From NCBI GenBank assembly GCA_020853775.1, contig JADYYH010000044.1:1-64000 (forward strand): a DNA stretch of 64,000 bases, given 5' to 3'. The notes under the pieces were generated by a model. It had not been told where the DNA came from. It did not search any database and saw only the letters and a list, made by a program, of their open reading frames with translations. The position numbers were made by a program, and so were the translations under genes. This document shows positions 50,834 through 57,778 of the stretch, in pieces. Numbering within the stretch: position 1 is the stretch's first letter; every line of letters starts with the position of its first letter. The DNA is from Nitrospira sp. Lineage in GTDB: Bacteria > Nitrospirota > Nitrospiria > Nitrospirales > Nitrospiraceae.

Positions 50834-52033
50834 CTATTCCGGCGTGCCACCGGGCGGTGCCTGCCCTTTCCGCCCGTGATGCAAAAACACCGAGATGCTG
50901 GCGGCTCCGTTATCGGCCGTCACCAAGCCAGGCTCCTCCCCGTTCTCGGCGGACACACGATAACTCGCCACCGCGAAGGGGCCGTTCTTGGTGCGGTAGT
51001 TGCGCGGCGGATAGTGGAACGTGCCGTCGCCGCGCCCGAACAGAATGGATAGGTCGGTGGATTGTAAATTGACGATCGCCACATCGTCGATATGGTCGCC
51101 GTCGAAGTCATGGGCCACCCCGAAATTGGGGCTGGCATCAGCACCGGAATCTTTTCCCGGCTGGAAGGTCCCATTGCCGTTGCCGAGGAAGGTCGTGAAG
51201 CTATCGCCTTCACCATTGATGACCAGGAGATCCGCCAGGTGATCGTTGTTAAAGTCGGCAAAACTCACCCCGAGCGGACGCCTGCCGGTTTTGTAGTCTT
51301 TGGGCTCTCGAAACGTCCCGTCGCCGTTGCCGATCCATACAGAGACGGCGCTTAACATCGGCCCGCCGTTCGTCACCACCAGGTCCGGCTTGCCGTCTTG
51401 ATTGAGATCCTTCAAGGCCACAGATGTTGGGGTATCGCCGTATTCATATTGCGCACCGGGACGAAATTGACCGTTAGAGCTTCCGAGAAAAATCTTCACC
51501 TTGTCGTTGCGCAGCGCTACGGCTAAATCGGGATGCCCGTCGCCGTTGATATCCTGACTGGAGATGGACACCGGGGCGCGATGAACCGGGTACTGCGGCC
51601 CTTCGTCAAACCTCCCGTTGCCCCGCCCAAACAGGATTGAGACCTGATCGCCACCCGAACAGGCCAGCGCCACATCAAGTTGGTCGTCGTGGTTGAAATC
51701 GTTGAGAGCGAGCGAACGTGGCTCCTGACACACTTTTACTTGAACCTGATCCCGAAAGGTCCCGTCGCCGTTGCCGAACAGGAGCGAAATGGAATTGCTC
51801 GAAATGTTCGTGGTAATGAGATCGGTAATTTGATCCCGGTTAAAATCGGCCGTCGTGACGGTGGTCGGGTTCTTGCCGACCGGATAGCTGGCAAAATAGT
51901 AGAACGGGTCCGGGGGAACGTAGGGATCAGTCTTTGAGCAGCCGAACAGCAGGGGCAAGCCGGCTACGAGCGCCAGAGCGACACGAAAAATCGATGAACT
52001 CTTGAAGACACAGGGGTCGATGGTCATCGCCAT
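50834..52033 (-). CDS. FG-GAP/VCBS repeat lipoprotein
   Basis: A 399-residue lipoprotein: signal peptide ending LLFGC (lipobox), then at least six FG-GAP/VCBS-type blades, each with a calcium-type loop: DFNRDQITDL, DFNHDDQLDV, DINGDGHPDL, DLNQDGKPDL, DFNNDHLADL and DFDGDHIDDV, plus matching FGxGxGTF turns. It should form a beta-propeller at the cell surface or periplasm. Functions of the family are varied (adhesion, electron-transfer partners). ATG 52031-52033 is the likely start, although one six bases downstream is possible. Confidence 0.85.
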   Translation of the reverse strand: MAMTIDPCVFKSSSIFRVALALVAGLPLLFGCSKTDPYVPPDPFYYFASYPVGKNPTTVTTADFNRDQITDLITTNISSNSISLLFGNGDGTFRDQVQVKVCQEPRSLALNDFNHDDQLDVALACSGGDQVSILFGRGNGRFDEGPQYPVHRAPVSISSQDINGDGHPDLAVALRNDKVKIFLGSSNGQFRPGAQYEYGDTPTSVALKDLNQDGKPDLVVTNGGPMLSAVSVWIGNGDGTFREPKDYKTGRRPLGVSFADFNNDHLADLLVINGEGDSFTTFLGNGNGTFQPGKDSGADASPNFGVAHDFDGDHIDDVAIVNLQSTDLSILFGRGDGTFHYPPRNYRTKNGPFAVASYRVSAENGEEPGLVTADNGAASISVFLHHGRKGQAPPGGTPE

Positions 52034-52273
52034 CCCGCTGAAAAAAGCATGACATTCCGGCCAAGTCCATGCTTCGCCGCTCCCACTCCTCATGCGTTGA
52101 GCGGAGTATACAGAGCCCCCTGCTGCTTCGCAACGAAGTCGCGCCCCTGATGGGGGTGTTCACAGCCCGGCCGTTGAGGCTCCCGAATGGGCTCTTGCAC
52201 CTAGGCCTTTCGCCCCTTTGAAAACTTAGAAAGCCTTAGGCTACAATGCGGGCCAAGTGTGGAGGAGGTGTCC

Positions 52274-52942: not shown

Positions 52943-52989
52943 GGTTGGAAGAAACAGAGCCGCCCGGCACCATTGGTGCGGGGCGGCTC
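52943..52989 (-). terminator. Intrinsic terminator of the leftward pheA-to-PCP cluster
   Basis: GAGCCGCCC-GGCACC-ATT-GGTGC-GGGGCGGCTC (52957-52989) is a long stem; on the minus strand it is followed by CTGTTTCTTCC. It lies about 50 bases past the PCP_red repeat gene and so ends the leftward cluster. Confidence 0.85.
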
Positions 52990-53037: not shown

Positions 53038-54033
53038 CTAGAGCGACCCCTCGCCTTTGAGAAATTTTCTAAATCGTCCCATCAGATCGGCGCCGAGCGT
53101 GCCGCCTTCCGGCTTTTTCACTTCGGGATCGCTGAAGTGCGAACGAATCTCCTGGAGGCGTTTTTCCGCCTGATCGTTGCCTTGTAAGCGCTTGGTTTTC
53201 TGAAGCGCGGTATCGAAGGCATCGAAGGTCAGCTCGTTATAGCCGAACGACCGGATTCGCTTCACGGCCTTCATCATCGCTTGATTGCGGAAGGTGGTGA
53301 GGTGATCGGAATCGACTTCCTTCAGTCCCAATTTGCGGGCTCTGCGCTCGGCTGCCTTGCGGATACCGCTGCGAACAAAGTCGGGCGAGGTTTGCAGGCG
53401 CTTCCAGGCTTCATCGCTCCAGGCCACGCGCTCCTGCGGGGCTTCCCACAACTGCACGGCAGTCTGTTCGTCAATTCTGGTCAAGCCCTTCTCCCGTGCC
53501 ATCTCCTCGGTATCATGCCGGATCATGTCGCTCACGAAATCCATGGCAATCGGCGGCGACTCCTTGATCTTCTGCTGCAAGAGCGCCAGGGCCCCTTCGG
53601 TCCATTCCAGCGGCGCAGCCTCGCGCTCGCGGATCTCGCCCAAGGCTTCGACCTTTTCAAAAAGATCGACGTTGACCTCCATGTGACCGCCCTTGCGGGC
53701 AATCTCGTCGGCGATCTGCTTGATCATCCCCCGCATGAATTCCGGCACTGCGGCCAGGCGCTCCTTGGCGGCAGCCGTCCAAGGCAACTGTCCTTTGGCC
53801 ATTTGATCGGCCGCCTCGGCCATACCGCCCTCACCACCCATGGTCCCCATCATCTGACCTTTGAACTGGTCGAGGATCTCTTCGGTGATTTCAGGATAGC
53901 CCAATTCACGCGCTTTCTTTTCAGCCAGGCGGCGGACCATTCCCCGCAAGAACATGGGCGCACGCTCCATTCGCTTGAGCGCGCCGTCACTCCACCGGAC
54001 CTCTGGGGCTGTTATATTTGAGGACTCTGCCAC
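53038..54033 (-). CDS. Tandem PCP_red-like repeat protein
   Basis: A 331-residue soluble protein with four tandem copies of a short helical module of the PCP_red type: W-x-x-x-A-x-x-R-(L/M)-x-x-x-P-x-F-x-R...A-x-x-x-G. Copies begin at Trp14 (VRWSDGALKRMERAPMF), Trp85 (PWTAAAKERLAAVPEFM), Trp144 (EWTEGALALLQQ) and Trp205 (AWSDEAWKRLQTSPDFV). The C-terminus is a coiled, charged segment. PCP_red is named for a region of light-independent protochlorophyllide reductase but occurs alone in other bacteria; no chlorophyll genes are visible. Immediately follows ihfB and lies in the same transcript. Confidence 0.85.
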   Translation of the reverse strand: MAESSNITAPEVRWSDGALKRMERAPMFLRGMVRRLAEKKARELGYPEITEEILDQFKGQMMGTMGGEGGMAEAADQMAKGQLPWTAAAKERLAAVPEFMRGMIKQIADEIARKGGHMEVNVDLFEKVEALGEIREREAAPLEWTEGALALLQQKIKESPPIAMDFVSDMIRHDTEEMAREKGLTRIDEQTAVQLWEAPQERVAWSDEAWKRLQTSPDFVRSGIRKAAERRARKLGLKEVDSDHLTTFRNQAMMKAVKRIRSFGYNELTFDAFDTALQKTKRLQGNDQAEKRLQEIRSHFSDPEVKKPEGGTLGADLMGRFRKFLKGEGSL

Positions 54034-54046
54034 GGTATCACTCCTG

Positions 54047-54325
54047 TTACTTATTGAGTAATTCCTTCAGTTCCTTGCCTGCCTTGAAGAATGGCACACG
54101 CTTGGCCGGCACCGCAACGGTTGCCCCGGTCTTGGGGTTGCGCCCTTCCTTCATGCGCCGCGCACGAAGCCGGAAGCTTCCGAACCCCCGAATCTCCGTC
54201 TTGTTGCCGTTTCGCAGGGAGTCCCGGATACAATCGAAAATCGTATTGACCACGATTTCCGCCTGCCGCTTCGTCAACGTGGTGACCTGCTCCGATACCC
54301 GCTCGATAATCTGCGCTTTGGTCAT
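54047..54325 (-). CDS. ihfB: Integration host factor beta-like DNA-bending protein
   Basis: A 92-residue HU/IHF family protein: dimerisation region MTKAQIIERVSEQVTTL and the DNA-binding arm IEIRGFGSFRLRARRMKEGRNPKTGATV. The text TEIRGFGSF and GRNPKTG matches IhfB rather than HU. Bends DNA and supports recombination and transcription. Located between sppA and the PCP_red repeat gene, echoing the E. coli order cmk-rpsA-ihfB. Confidence 0.92.
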   Translation of the reverse strand: MTKAQIIERVSEQVTTLTKRQAEIVVNTIFDCIRDSLRNGNKTEIRGFGSFRLRARRMKEGRNPKTGATVAVPAKRVPFFKAGKELKELLNK

Positions 54326-54397: not shown

Positions 54398-55297
54398 TCA
54401 GAACGCCATCAAATATTTCAGTTTGACGCCGGTATCGAACTCCAACTTCGGAAAGACCGACGACCACCGTGATTCGATGATATCCCGGAATGAAAACCGC
54501 TTGCGTGGTTCGACGACTTTCGGCTCCCCTTCCATGCCGGCGATGTCCGCCGCGATATGGATCGCATCGTCAAGATCGCCTAGTTCGTCAACGAGCCGGG
54601 CCTCTTTCGCCTGGCGCCCGGTATAAATCCGGCCATCGGCCAACGGCTCCACATCGGACACTTCCAACGACCGTCCGTCTGCCACAGCCTGAATAAACTG
54701 CTGATGGACATCATCCATCACGGACTGCAACAGCTTGCGCTCTTCATCACTCATCTTGCGCACGGGCGATCCGACATCTTTGAAGCGCCCGCTCTTGATG
54801 ACCACACCTTCGACCCCGACTTTTTTCATCAGGCCTTCGAAGTTCGCCATCTCCATGATCACGCCGATACTTCCGGTCAAGCTGCCGGGATTGGCAATGA
54901 TTCGATCCGTGGCCGCCGCAATGTAATATCCGCCTGACGCAGCAACCGTGCCCATGGACGCGATGATGGCTTTATTGCTTTTGTTTTTCAACCGCTTGAC
55001 GGCGTCGTGAATTTCCTGCGACGGCACGACGCCGCCGCCAGGGCTGTCGATACGCAACACGATCGCCTTCACCAGCGGATTCTCGCTGTAGTGCTTTAAC
55101 TCGCTGATCGTCGCTTGCGCATCCAGGATCACGCCCTCGATGCGAATGAGGGCCACACGATCCTGGGTTGAGAAATCGAGGTCGGGGAGGAGCGCGTTCA
55201 AGAGAATCAACGCTCCTCCCACAATCACGATGGCCCAGAGGATACGGCGCAGTAGGCTCCGCTGCGGTCTCCCCGCCGTGTCTGTTTGTGGGCCCAT
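54398..55297 (-). CDS. sppA: Signal peptide peptidase SppA
   Basis: A 299-residue membrane serine protease of the single-domain (SppA36K-like) type. One N-terminal membrane span (ILWAIVIVGGALILLNALL), then the catalytic domain with GGGVVPSQEIHDAVK, GTVAASGGYYIAAATDRIIANPGSLTGSIGVI (catalytic Ser) and VVIKSGRFKDVGSPVR (Lys). Degrades cleaved signal peptides. Lies between rpsA and ihfB in the leftward cluster. Confidence 0.94.
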   Translation of the reverse strand: MGPQTDTAGRPQRSLLRRILWAIVIVGGALILLNALLPDLDFSTQDRVALIRIEGVILDAQATISELKHYSENPLVKAIVLRIDSPGGGVVPSQEIHDAVKRLKNKSNKAIIASMGTVAASGGYYIAAATDRIIANPGSLTGSIGVIMEMANFEGLMKKVGVEGVVIKSGRFKDVGSPVRKMSDEERKLLQSVMDDVHQQFIQAVADGRSLEVSDVEPLADGRIYTGRQAKEARLVDELGDLDDAIHIAADIAGMEGEPKVVEPRKRFSFRDIIESRWSSVFPKLEFDTGVKLKYLMAF

Positions 55298-55312: not shown

Positions 55313-57028
55313 TTAGGCTTCGGAATCGTTCTGGTTCCGCTTCCGGCTTTGCTTGGCCGCGCGTCCCAGGGTTTGGTCGATTCCGCCCTGTGAAGCATGG
55401 AATTCATCCACCTGGCGGCGGTCGGAGTCCAGCTGGTGATCGCGGAGGCTGAGCGCGATCTTCCGCTCGTCGCGATCCACCTTGATGATCTTCGCCGTGA
55501 CGTCATCACCCGGCTTGAACTTTTCTTCCATGCGAACGTTGGCGTCGAGACCCACTTCGCTGATGTGGATCAAGCCTTCCACGTCCCCGTCCAGTTCGAT
55601 AAAGAGTCCGAAATCAGCGATCTTGCTGACCTTGCCGGTAATGCTATCGCCGACCCGGTACTTGCTGGGAATCTGCTCTTCCCACGGATCGCGGGACAAT
55701 TGCTTGTAGCCCAGCGAGAGGCGTTCCTTTTCCTTGTCGATGCGAATCACCACGGCATCCACCTTCTGGCCCTTCTTGAAGAGCTCCGATGGATGCTTGA
55801 TGTGCTTCGTCCAGGACATGTCGGAAATGTGAATTAAGCCATCGATACCTTCTTCCAATCCCACGAACGCGCCGAAGTCGGTCAGGCTCTTCACCTTGCC
55901 TTCGATCCGCGTGCCGGCCGGATATTTGGCTTCGATCATGTCCCAGGGATTCGGCGCGGTCTGCTTCATACCCAAGGAAATCTTGCGGCTTCCCGGATCG
56001 ATATTCAAGACGGCCGCTTCCACCTGATCACCCACCGACACCACACGCGATGGGTGCCGCACTTCGTGCGTCCACGACATCTCGGACACGTGGACTAAGC
56101 CTTCCACGCCCGGCTCCAGTTCGACGAACGCGCCATAATCGGTCAAGCTCACCACGCGACCACGGACGCGCGTGCCTACCGGGTACTTCGCCGCCACCCC
56201 GGTCCAGGGATCTGCCGACTTCTGCTTGAGGCCCAATGAAATACGGCCGGTTTCCCGATCGTACTTGAGCACGGTGACTTCGACTTTGTCGCTGACCTGG
56301 AACAACTCGGATGGATGTCCCACACGGCCCCACGACATATCGGTGATATGCAACAAGCCGTCGATGCCGCCCAGATCGATGAATGCACCGTAATCGGTGA
56401 TGTTCTTGACCGTGCCTTGAATCAACTGGCCTTCCTTCAACGTGGCCAATGTCGTCTGGCGACGTCGGTCGCGGGTTTCCTCCAGCAGGACGCGCCGGGA
56501 AACCACCACATTGCCGCGGCGATGGTTGATCTTGATGATCTTCAGCGGGAAGGTCTTGCCGACCAACCCATCGAGATCACGGACGGGATGCAGATCGATC
56601 TGCGAACCGGGCAAGAACGCCTTGACGCCGATATCGACCATCATGCCGCCCTTGATGCGGGAAATGATCTTTCCCTCGATGCTTTTTTCTTCTTTATGCA
56701 GCTTCTCCAATTCCTCCCAGATTTTCATCTTGTCGGCTTTTTCTTTGGAGAGCACCAGATTGCCGTCCGCGTCCTCGCATTCTTCGAGATACACCTGCAG
56801 GCGATCGCCCACTTTCAATTGTCCCAATTCTTCCTGCGAGAACTGATCGGCTGGAATCATCCCCTCGGACTTGTAGCCGATATCGACGACGACTTTGTCC
56901 TTACCGATCGCGACGACCATGCCCTCGGTGATGGTGCCTTCCTCAAAATTCCGGAAGGTTTCCTCATACATCGCCGCTAAGGCATCGCGGTCGAGCTTGG
57001 GTTCGCTTTGTGGGGTGGCAGTACTCAT
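55313..57028 (-). CDS. rpsA: 30S ribosomal protein S1
   Basis: A 571-residue ribosomal protein with six S1 RNA-binding domains. The repeats carry LTDYGAFVELEPGVEGLVHVSEMSWT and close variants (TDYGAFIDLGGIDGLLHITDMSW, TDFGAFVGLEEGIDGLIHISDMSW, ADFGLFIELDGDVEGLIHISEVG); two more divergent S1 domains lie in the first 180 residues. Helps mRNA bind the ribosome. It follows plsC and precedes sppA by 15 bases, in the cmk-rpsA-ihfB type arrangement. Confidence 0.97.
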   Translation of the reverse strand: MSTATPQSEPKLDRDALAAMYEETFRNFEEGTITEGMVVAIGKDKVVVDIGYKSEGMIPADQFSQEELGQLKVGDRLQVYLEECEDADGNLVLSKEKADKMKIWEELEKLHKEEKSIEGKIISRIKGGMMVDIGVKAFLPGSQIDLHPVRDLDGLVGKTFPLKIIKINHRRGNVVVSRRVLLEETRDRRRQTTLATLKEGQLIQGTVKNITDYGAFIDLGGIDGLLHITDMSWGRVGHPSELFQVSDKVEVTVLKYDRETGRISLGLKQKSADPWTGVAAKYPVGTRVRGRVVSLTDYGAFVELEPGVEGLVHVSEMSWTHEVRHPSRVVSVGDQVEAAVLNIDPGSRKISLGMKQTAPNPWDMIEAKYPAGTRIEGKVKSLTDFGAFVGLEEGIDGLIHISDMSWTKHIKHPSELFKKGQKVDAVVIRIDKEKERLSLGYKQLSRDPWEEQIPSKYRVGDSITGKVSKIADFGLFIELDGDVEGLIHISEVGLDANVRMEEKFKPGDDVTAKIIKVDRDERKIALSLRDHQLDSDRRQVDEFHASQGGIDQTLGRAAKQSRKRNQNDSEA

Positions 57029-57082
57029 GAAAGGTCCGTCCTCCGGCCTATGCCGGGTGCTGATAGTGAAAAAACCCGAGTC

Positions 57083-57778
57083 TTACTCAGCGTTGCAAGA
57101 CTTGGCTGCCGGTCTTGGCTCTAGATCATGCGACGGTCCGGCCTCGGCCTTCCCGTCTCCGGGGTTCGGCACCTGTCCGAGCTCCGCAATCTTTGCCATC
57201 ACCGTACGACTGACATGTTGATAAAACACTTTGCCTTCCAGGTGCGCGGCTTCTGCCGAGAAGTCCAACGGGTCTCCGTAAGTCACTGTCACACGGCGAA
57301 ATCTCGGCCACTTGGCCCCGGGGGGCAGCACCTCAAACGTCCCGCCGATATGCGCGGGGACTACGCGGCATCCCGTTTGCGACACGATCACCCCGATCCC
57401 TGGCTTCCCCGGTTTCAACGCACCGGTCATCGTCCGCCCGCCTTCGGGGAAAATGGCCACCGCCTTTTCCTCGTTGATCAAGGCGACCGCTTTACTGAAG
57501 GCGTCCCGATCGAGGCGGCCGATCCGTAACGGAATCCATCCCAATGCTTGCAGCAGGCCGTTGAGCAGCGGGATCGGAAACAAGTCATGCCGCCCCATGT
57601 ACCAGACCCGCCGGGGAATGCCACAACCCAGCAACGGAATATCCAGATAGCTGGCGTGGTTCGACGCGATCAACAGTCCGCCTTGTCGCGGCACCCGGCC
57701 GATGGTGCGATACCGGAAACAGATCCAGCCGATACTGCGCGAGAGGACCCACAAGAGGGCATAGAGTGCGGAGCTCAC
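57083..57778 (-). CDS. plsC: 1-acyl-sn-glycerol-3-phosphate acyltransferase family protein
   Basis: A 231-residue acyltransferase. The HX4D motif is in SNHASYLDIPLL and the FPEGGRTMTG block follows; the N-terminus is hydrophobic (ALYALLWVLSRSIGWICF). It acylates lysophosphatidic acid or a related phospholipid precursor. Its start overlaps the cmk stop by four bases, so the two are co-translated. Specific acyl substrate not determined. Confidence 0.93.
   Translation of the reverse strand: MSSALYALLWVLSRSIGWICFRYRTIGRVPRQGGLLIASNHASYLDIPLLGCGIPRRVWYMGRHDLFPIPLLNGLLQALGWIPLRIGRLDRDAFSKAVALINEEKAVAIFPEGGRTMTGALKPGKPGIGVIVSQTGCRVVPAHIGGTFEVLPPGAKWPRFRRVTVTYGDPLDFSAEAAHLEGKVFYQHVSRTVMAKIAELGQVPNPGDGKAEAGPSHDLEPRPAAKSCNAE

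Follow-up and report, generated by a model that had tools for sequence, protein, structure and literature searches.

A conserved four-module PCP_red protein of Nitrospira with a possible accessory role in tetrapyrrole maturation

Introduction

The PCP_red domain takes its name from chlorophyll synthesis, and it forms the C-terminal region of BchB/ChlB, subunit B of DPOR (structures 2KRU and 2YNM). The searchable open literature yielded no description of the role of the domain inside BchB. A stand-alone PCP_red fold, Asr4154 of the oxygenic phototroph Nostoc sp. PCC 7120 (2L09), consists of one module of 62 residues without the BchB catalytic part, and to our knowledge no function has been assigned to it. 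PCP_red domains of non-phototrophs are already in the databases, and no function for those of Nitrospira was found in the searched literature. Fusions of USP and PCP_red domains in methanogens, which are non-phototrophic archaea, have been termed unusual, and no role beyond oxidation-reduction was proposed for them (PMC12159084). A further group of relevant enzymes acts on porphyrins: NirJ cleaves off porphyrin side chains, AhbD decarboxylates them, and the last step from coproheme to heme is performed by both AhbD and HemQ/ChdC (PMC7242693).

Here, we describe PCP4, a Nitrospira protein that shares its domain family and fold with the C terminus of BchB/ChlB but lacks the nitrogenase-like catalytic part, carries four consecutive modules where BchB has a single one, possesses a tail found in PCP4 and in radical-SAM fusion proteins, and is encoded in a genome without BchB. 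PCP4 resembles Asr4154 in standing free of that catalytic part. It has neither the USP domain of the methanogen fusions, although a fusion of the same kind occurs in Nitrospira, nor a radical-SAM domain. NirJ, NirJ2, and AhbD are instead the nearest models for the radical-SAM/SPASM part of its putative partner, which differs from them in scoring below the equivalog cut-offs and in ending in a PCP_red module.

Results

The window, meaning the whole stretch of 64,000 nucleotides that was analyzed, contains an intact PCP4 open reading frame that starts with GTG and has AGGAG upstream. Its parts are as follows.

53038..54033, minus strand: PCP4 gene, 331 amino acids, four PCP_red modules and a conserved tail
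53860..53994, minus strand: PCP_red module M1, 54.0 bits, passes
53653..53781, minus strand: PCP_red module M2, 48.0 bits, passes
53464..53604, minus strand: degenerate PCP_red module M3, 24.9 bits, fails the cut-off of 32.5
53296..53421, minus strand: PCP_red module M4, the most conserved of the modules, 49.2 bits, passes
53041..53307, minus strand: C-terminal tail (RNxAMMKAxxRIRxxGYxxLTFDAF...), conserved and also present in radical-SAM fusion proteins

The Pfam model PF08369 (PCP_red) matched PCP4 in four stretches (E value of 7.8e-46, 154.3 bits), and each module was also scored singly against the 32.5-bit cut-off of this model. Three of the four repeats exceeded it. The four tandem modules described in the earlier note are thus borne out for M1, M2, and M4, whereas M3 is a degenerate copy, WTEGALALLQQKIKESPPIAMDF, in which the P-x-F-x-R part is missing. 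Likewise, the motif W-x3-A-x2-R-L-x3-P-x-F-x-R, which had been recognized in all four units, is real in three of them and worn in the fourth. The tail behind M4, which the earlier note had missed, constitutes a fifth part; it is nearly invariant, with a conservation comparable to that of M4. In an alignment of the window protein with 29 orthologues at 43 to 84% identity to it, the invariant residues were W205, P217, F219, V220, R221, A228, E229, R249, N250, M253, M254, T269, F270, and D271. PCP4 contains no Cys and one conserved His. This composition fits the role of an accessory protein and makes a catalyst, an Fe-S protein, or a c-type heme protein unlikely.

AlphaFold2, run on the orthologue alignment, predicted every module of PCP4 as the same β-α-α-β-α unit. 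The full-length model had a mean pLDDT of 74 and a pTM of 0.41, leaving the packing between modules unsure, and M4 with the tail was modeled better alone (pLDDT, 85; pTM, 0.72). The best PDB matches of the M4 model were 2KRU and 2L09, both of them solved PCP_red domains. It superposed on 2KRU at 1.2 Å over 51 columns with a probability of 1.00, although the Foldseek E value was no better than 0.017 for so small a unit, and on residues 479 to 528 of 2YNM chain D at 1.3 Å over 50 residues; for 2L09, a VIA-align Z score of 8.1 was obtained (3.3 Å over 61 residues). The structure prediction of one repeat proposed in the earlier note hence agrees with its domain assignment, and the modules, as modeled, share the fold of the solved PCP_red domains. 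Separately, M4 (residues 198 to 253) resembles AAA+ lid domains such as that of RuvB (Z of about 7, 2.1 Å over 53 residues). Kinship with AAA+ proteins was considered and dropped, since Z scores of 6 to 7, as obtained for RuvB and RuvBL, are in the range common for helical units and perhaps reflect a common arrangement of such units.

PCP4 belongs to the PCP_red domain family but is not a BchB. It scored 80.8 bits against TIGR01278 (BchB; cut-off, 490), and its best stretch covered only model positions 449 to 506 of 512. The nitrogenase-like part is absent, and PCP4 is therefore not subunit B of DPOR (BchB/ChlB). A search of its own genome with TIGR01278 returned PCP_red fragments only, with no match above the cut-off, and none of 198 Nitrospirota genomes contained a BchB above the cut-off. 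These results uphold the non-photosynthetic context claimed in the earlier note and led us to reject a hidden photosynthesis cluster. Plasmids searched with an invented query resembling the module yielded bchB genes only.

PCP4 is conserved throughout the order, with a match, nearly always full-length, in 61 of 61 searched genomes. Orthologues across the class are about 52 to 62% identical, and those of two further families are 41 to 45% identical. Identity reaches 98% in N. defluvii and 80% in N. moscoviensis, with dN/dS values of 0.010 and 0.10, respectively. These values indicate that the gene is under strong purifying selection, and they led us to reject a broken or decaying gene. The following features surround PCP4 in the window.

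57079-57102, before rpsA: terminator-like site found by a terminator scan
55313..57028, minus strand: rpsA (ribosomal protein S1), likely the first gene of the run
54398..55297, minus strand: sppA-like gene (peptidase S49), a kept neighbor
54047..54325, minus strand: ihfB/HU-family gene, 13 bp upstream of PCP4
52957..52989, minus strand: GC-rich hairpin with a weak T-tract, about 50 nt past the PCP4 stop codon (fold z, -2.2)

We searched genome contigs with a full-length alignment and inspected the best 80 of 208 loci, the titles of which read Nitrospira, Nitrospiraceae, or Nitrospirae/Nitrospirota, except for two bins labeled Nitrosospira. Of the named Nitrospira loci, 71 extended far enough upstream to be scored, and in all of them rpsA, sppA, and ihfB lay on the same strand as PCP4, with ihfB 12 to 41 bp from it; the neighborhood of ihfB and sppA reported in the earlier note is real and kept. 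Gaps of 13 and 72 bp suggest cotranscription of PCP4 with ihfB and sppA, and the terminator-like site upstream of rpsA together with the strong hairpin behind PCP4 makes a single rpsA-sppA-ihfB-PCP4 transcript likely. The hairpin, which the terminator scan did not pick up, is a possible transcript end. Downstream of PCP4, a repeat protein that we named FG-GAP type by eye from its sequence (50834-52093, minus strand) is encoded close by, on the strand of PCP4, at 66 of the 71 named loci. As to the function of PCP4, the genes rpsA, sppA, and ihfB are uninformative neighbors.

A survey of gene neighbors, as suggested in the earlier note, found ihfB, sppA, and rpsA kept in order within the order only. 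In the sister families of the class, PCP4 orthologues instead lie in operons, often with gaps below 15 bp, with genes for radical-SAM-PCP, HemJ/CopD-like, haem-oxygenase-like, and DUF420 proteins and for the Mrp/NUBPL Fe-S carrier, the last being a steady neighbor. In families f7 and f10, USP-PCP, radical-SAM-PCP, and PCP4 genes follow one another with 11 to 90 bp between the last two, and in f7 a CopD/HemJ-like gene comes next; for a gene of this kind in L110, a weak UPF0093 match was obtained (E value of 5e-5). The full order USP-PCP, radical-SAM-PCP, PCP4, CopD-HemJ-like was seen in L146 and L113, and its first three genes were seen in L145. A second arrangement (L112, L147, and L109) reads Mrp, a Zn-ribbon-like protein with two PCP_red modules, Haem_oxygenas_2 (PF14518, haem-oxygenase-like), and PCP4. 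Eight families of the class beyond the order were examined, and in seven of them another PCP gene lay near PCP4, with a distance of 4.3 kb in f9. A random-placement estimate of this proximity, made for seven of nine, was about 1e-12, which is a rough guide only, as the families share ancestry.

The radical-SAM/SPASM part of the Nitrospira radical-SAM-PCP protein scored best against NirJ2 (322 bits) and the heme b synthase AhbD (319 bits). Both values fall short of the 500-bit equivalog cut-offs; peptide-maturase models reached about 150 bits or less. By these scores, the protein is related to NirJ2 and AhbD but is a member of neither as the models define them. In one deep family (G107, G112, and G068), a radical-SAM/SPASM protein, 53 to 56% identical to Nitrospira's own radical-SAM-PCP protein, continues into M2-M3-M4-tail of the window type. 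The next gene in G107 and G068 encodes a protein of the protoporphyrinogen/coproporphyrinogen oxidase family (TIGR00562, 304 and 291 bits; cut-off, 97.85). In a module tree that rests on 54 columns and whose bootstrap values are unsettled, the M4 modules of the fusions grouped with the window M4 (bootstrap, 94 to 98), and module 1 of the fusions joined the PCP module of the radical-SAM-PCP protein (98/93). Judged from these sequences, PCP4 modules and radical-SAM enzyme form one polypeptide in deep-branching relatives and are encoded by separate genes in Nitrospira.

The genome of the window encodes 12 PCP_red modules in five genes, PCP4 included. One paralogue is a Zn-ribbon-like protein with two modules, encoded beside an Mrp/NUBPL ATPase gene; the label rests on its Cys pattern, and Pfam names no such domain there. 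Another, of 703 amino acids, has the architecture USP-USP-PCP-rubredoxin-PCP-PCP (L040:117-2228(+), contig C57), and directly behind it lie the radical-SAM/SPASM-PCP gene and a gene for a CopD-like membrane protein. A 164-amino-acid protein with two modules (L041:5451-5945(+), contig C17) is encoded near DUF420 and cytochrome-bd-like oxidase genes. The genome also contains hemE-hemH-hemY and a coproheme-decarboxylase-like gene. A second Cld-family protein (L173:1459-2253(-), contig C24), with a likely signal peptide, is presumably the chlorite dismutase known from Nitrospira.

Other fusions extend this range. In family f22, PCP_red precedes a Cld/coproheme-decarboxylase-like domain (L163:6036-7061, L264, L267, and L270), and coproheme decarboxylase is the nearest solved relative of the L163 fusion in the PDB. 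The proximal heme-ligand His is replaced in the four aligned fusions and retained in both Cld proteins of the window's genome; because of this loss, the Cld domain of the fusions may not work as a heme enzyme. In G221 (L269:829-1662(-)), the domain that follows PCP_red is of the NIR_SIR siroheme type, accompanied by 4Fe-4S ferredoxin clusters.

Discussion

The earlier note had taken the cotranscribed neighbors as a hint of a housekeeping role. A conserved chromosomal role stands, given the occurrence in all searched genomes of the order and the low dN/dS, but "housekeeping" is too narrow. The sister-family operons with their heme-type neighbors and the radical-SAM fusion in one deep family lead us to prefer a reading as a tetrapyrrole/heme-enzyme accessory. 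More specifically, we give an even chance to the proposal that PCP4 is a free-standing, noncatalytic PCP_red array that serves as a scaffold or escort in tetrapyrrole (heme-type) maturation in Nitrospirota. Its modules would dock on the radical-SAM/SPASM enzyme of the NirJ2/AhbD neighborhood, which itself ends in PCP_red, and would possibly hand porphyrin intermediates to it. PCP4 would thus be the detached scaffold arm of radical-SAM-PCP, keeping the enzyme, its partners, or the porphyrin intermediate in place. Contact between the two proteins in Nitrospira, porphyrin binding by any PCP_red module, and a tetrapyrrole as the partner's substrate are all inferred; the partner's scores under the NirJ2 and AhbD cut-offs leave that substrate not fixed. 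Several observations speak against this proposal: the Cld domain of the fusions lacks the proximal His, PCP_red is also joined to USP, rubredoxin-like, and Zn-ribbon parts that have no tetrapyrrole link, a genome with its own hem genes and a coproheme-decarboxylase-like gene shows no obvious need for a further heme step, and within the order PCP4 sits among translation genes, not heme genes. Since hemE-hemH-hemY and the decarboxylase-like gene are present, the pathway served is perhaps a side branch yielding a modified heme and not heme b itself, which is a guess.

PCP_red could instead be a generic docking module for Fe-S and redox proteins, with PCP4 gathering the USP-rubredoxin-PCP, radical-SAM-PCP, and Zn-ribbon-PCP proteins through module-module contacts and tetrapyrroles being incidental. 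Within this one genome, PCP_red indeed occurs joined to USP, rubredoxin-like, Zn-ribbon, and radical-SAM parts, the first three without a tetrapyrrole link; a scaffold suits repeated modules, and the Fe-S carrier Mrp/NUBPL is the steady neighbor in sister families. The enzyme-type partners seen (BchB, NirJ2/AhbD-like, Cld-like, and NIR_SIR), however, all come from tetrapyrrole-handling families, and we regard this explanation as unlikely, if a serious one. SPASM enzymes are mostly peptide maturases, and the nearest solved relative of the radical-SAM partner is PqqE, so that PCP4 or its modules might bind peptides, and PCP_red might help a peptide maturase to recognize its substrate; as the scores of the NirJ2 and AhbD models are about double those of any peptide-maturase model, this seems improbable. 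We attach slightly less weight still to a nucleoid- or translation-linked protein, coexpressed with IHF/HU and S1, whose basic helical modules bind nucleic acid. Its rpsA and ihfB neighbors in 71 of 71 scorable loci, the Arg/Lys residues that M4 and the tail conserve, and the likeness to AAA+ lids would suit such a protein, but this gene context was seen within the order only, sister families having PCP4 elsewhere with cofactor genes, the Z scores are common for helical units, and PCP4 is about balanced in charge (55 K+R and 55 D+E).

If the accessory reading in tetrapyrrole maturation is followed further, PCP_red modules might serve generally as porphyrin escorts, in a role older than or parallel to the one in chlorophyll synthesis, and PCP4 might be a new type of tetrapyrrole carrier serving an undescribed radical-SAM heme-modifying enzyme; this extension we consider doubtful. 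The relatives and gene neighbors suggest that PCP_red may work in tetrapyrrole chemistry generally. Nitrospira are nitrite-oxidizing bacteria that make no chlorophyll and have a metabolism rich in heme proteins. The conservation of PCP4 through the class Nitrospiria, together with the fusions and operons, provides a concrete, testable idea of what PCP_red may do outside photosynthesis and points to a radical-SAM enzyme of nitrite-oxidizing bacteria that may act on tetrapyrroles and may be new to science.
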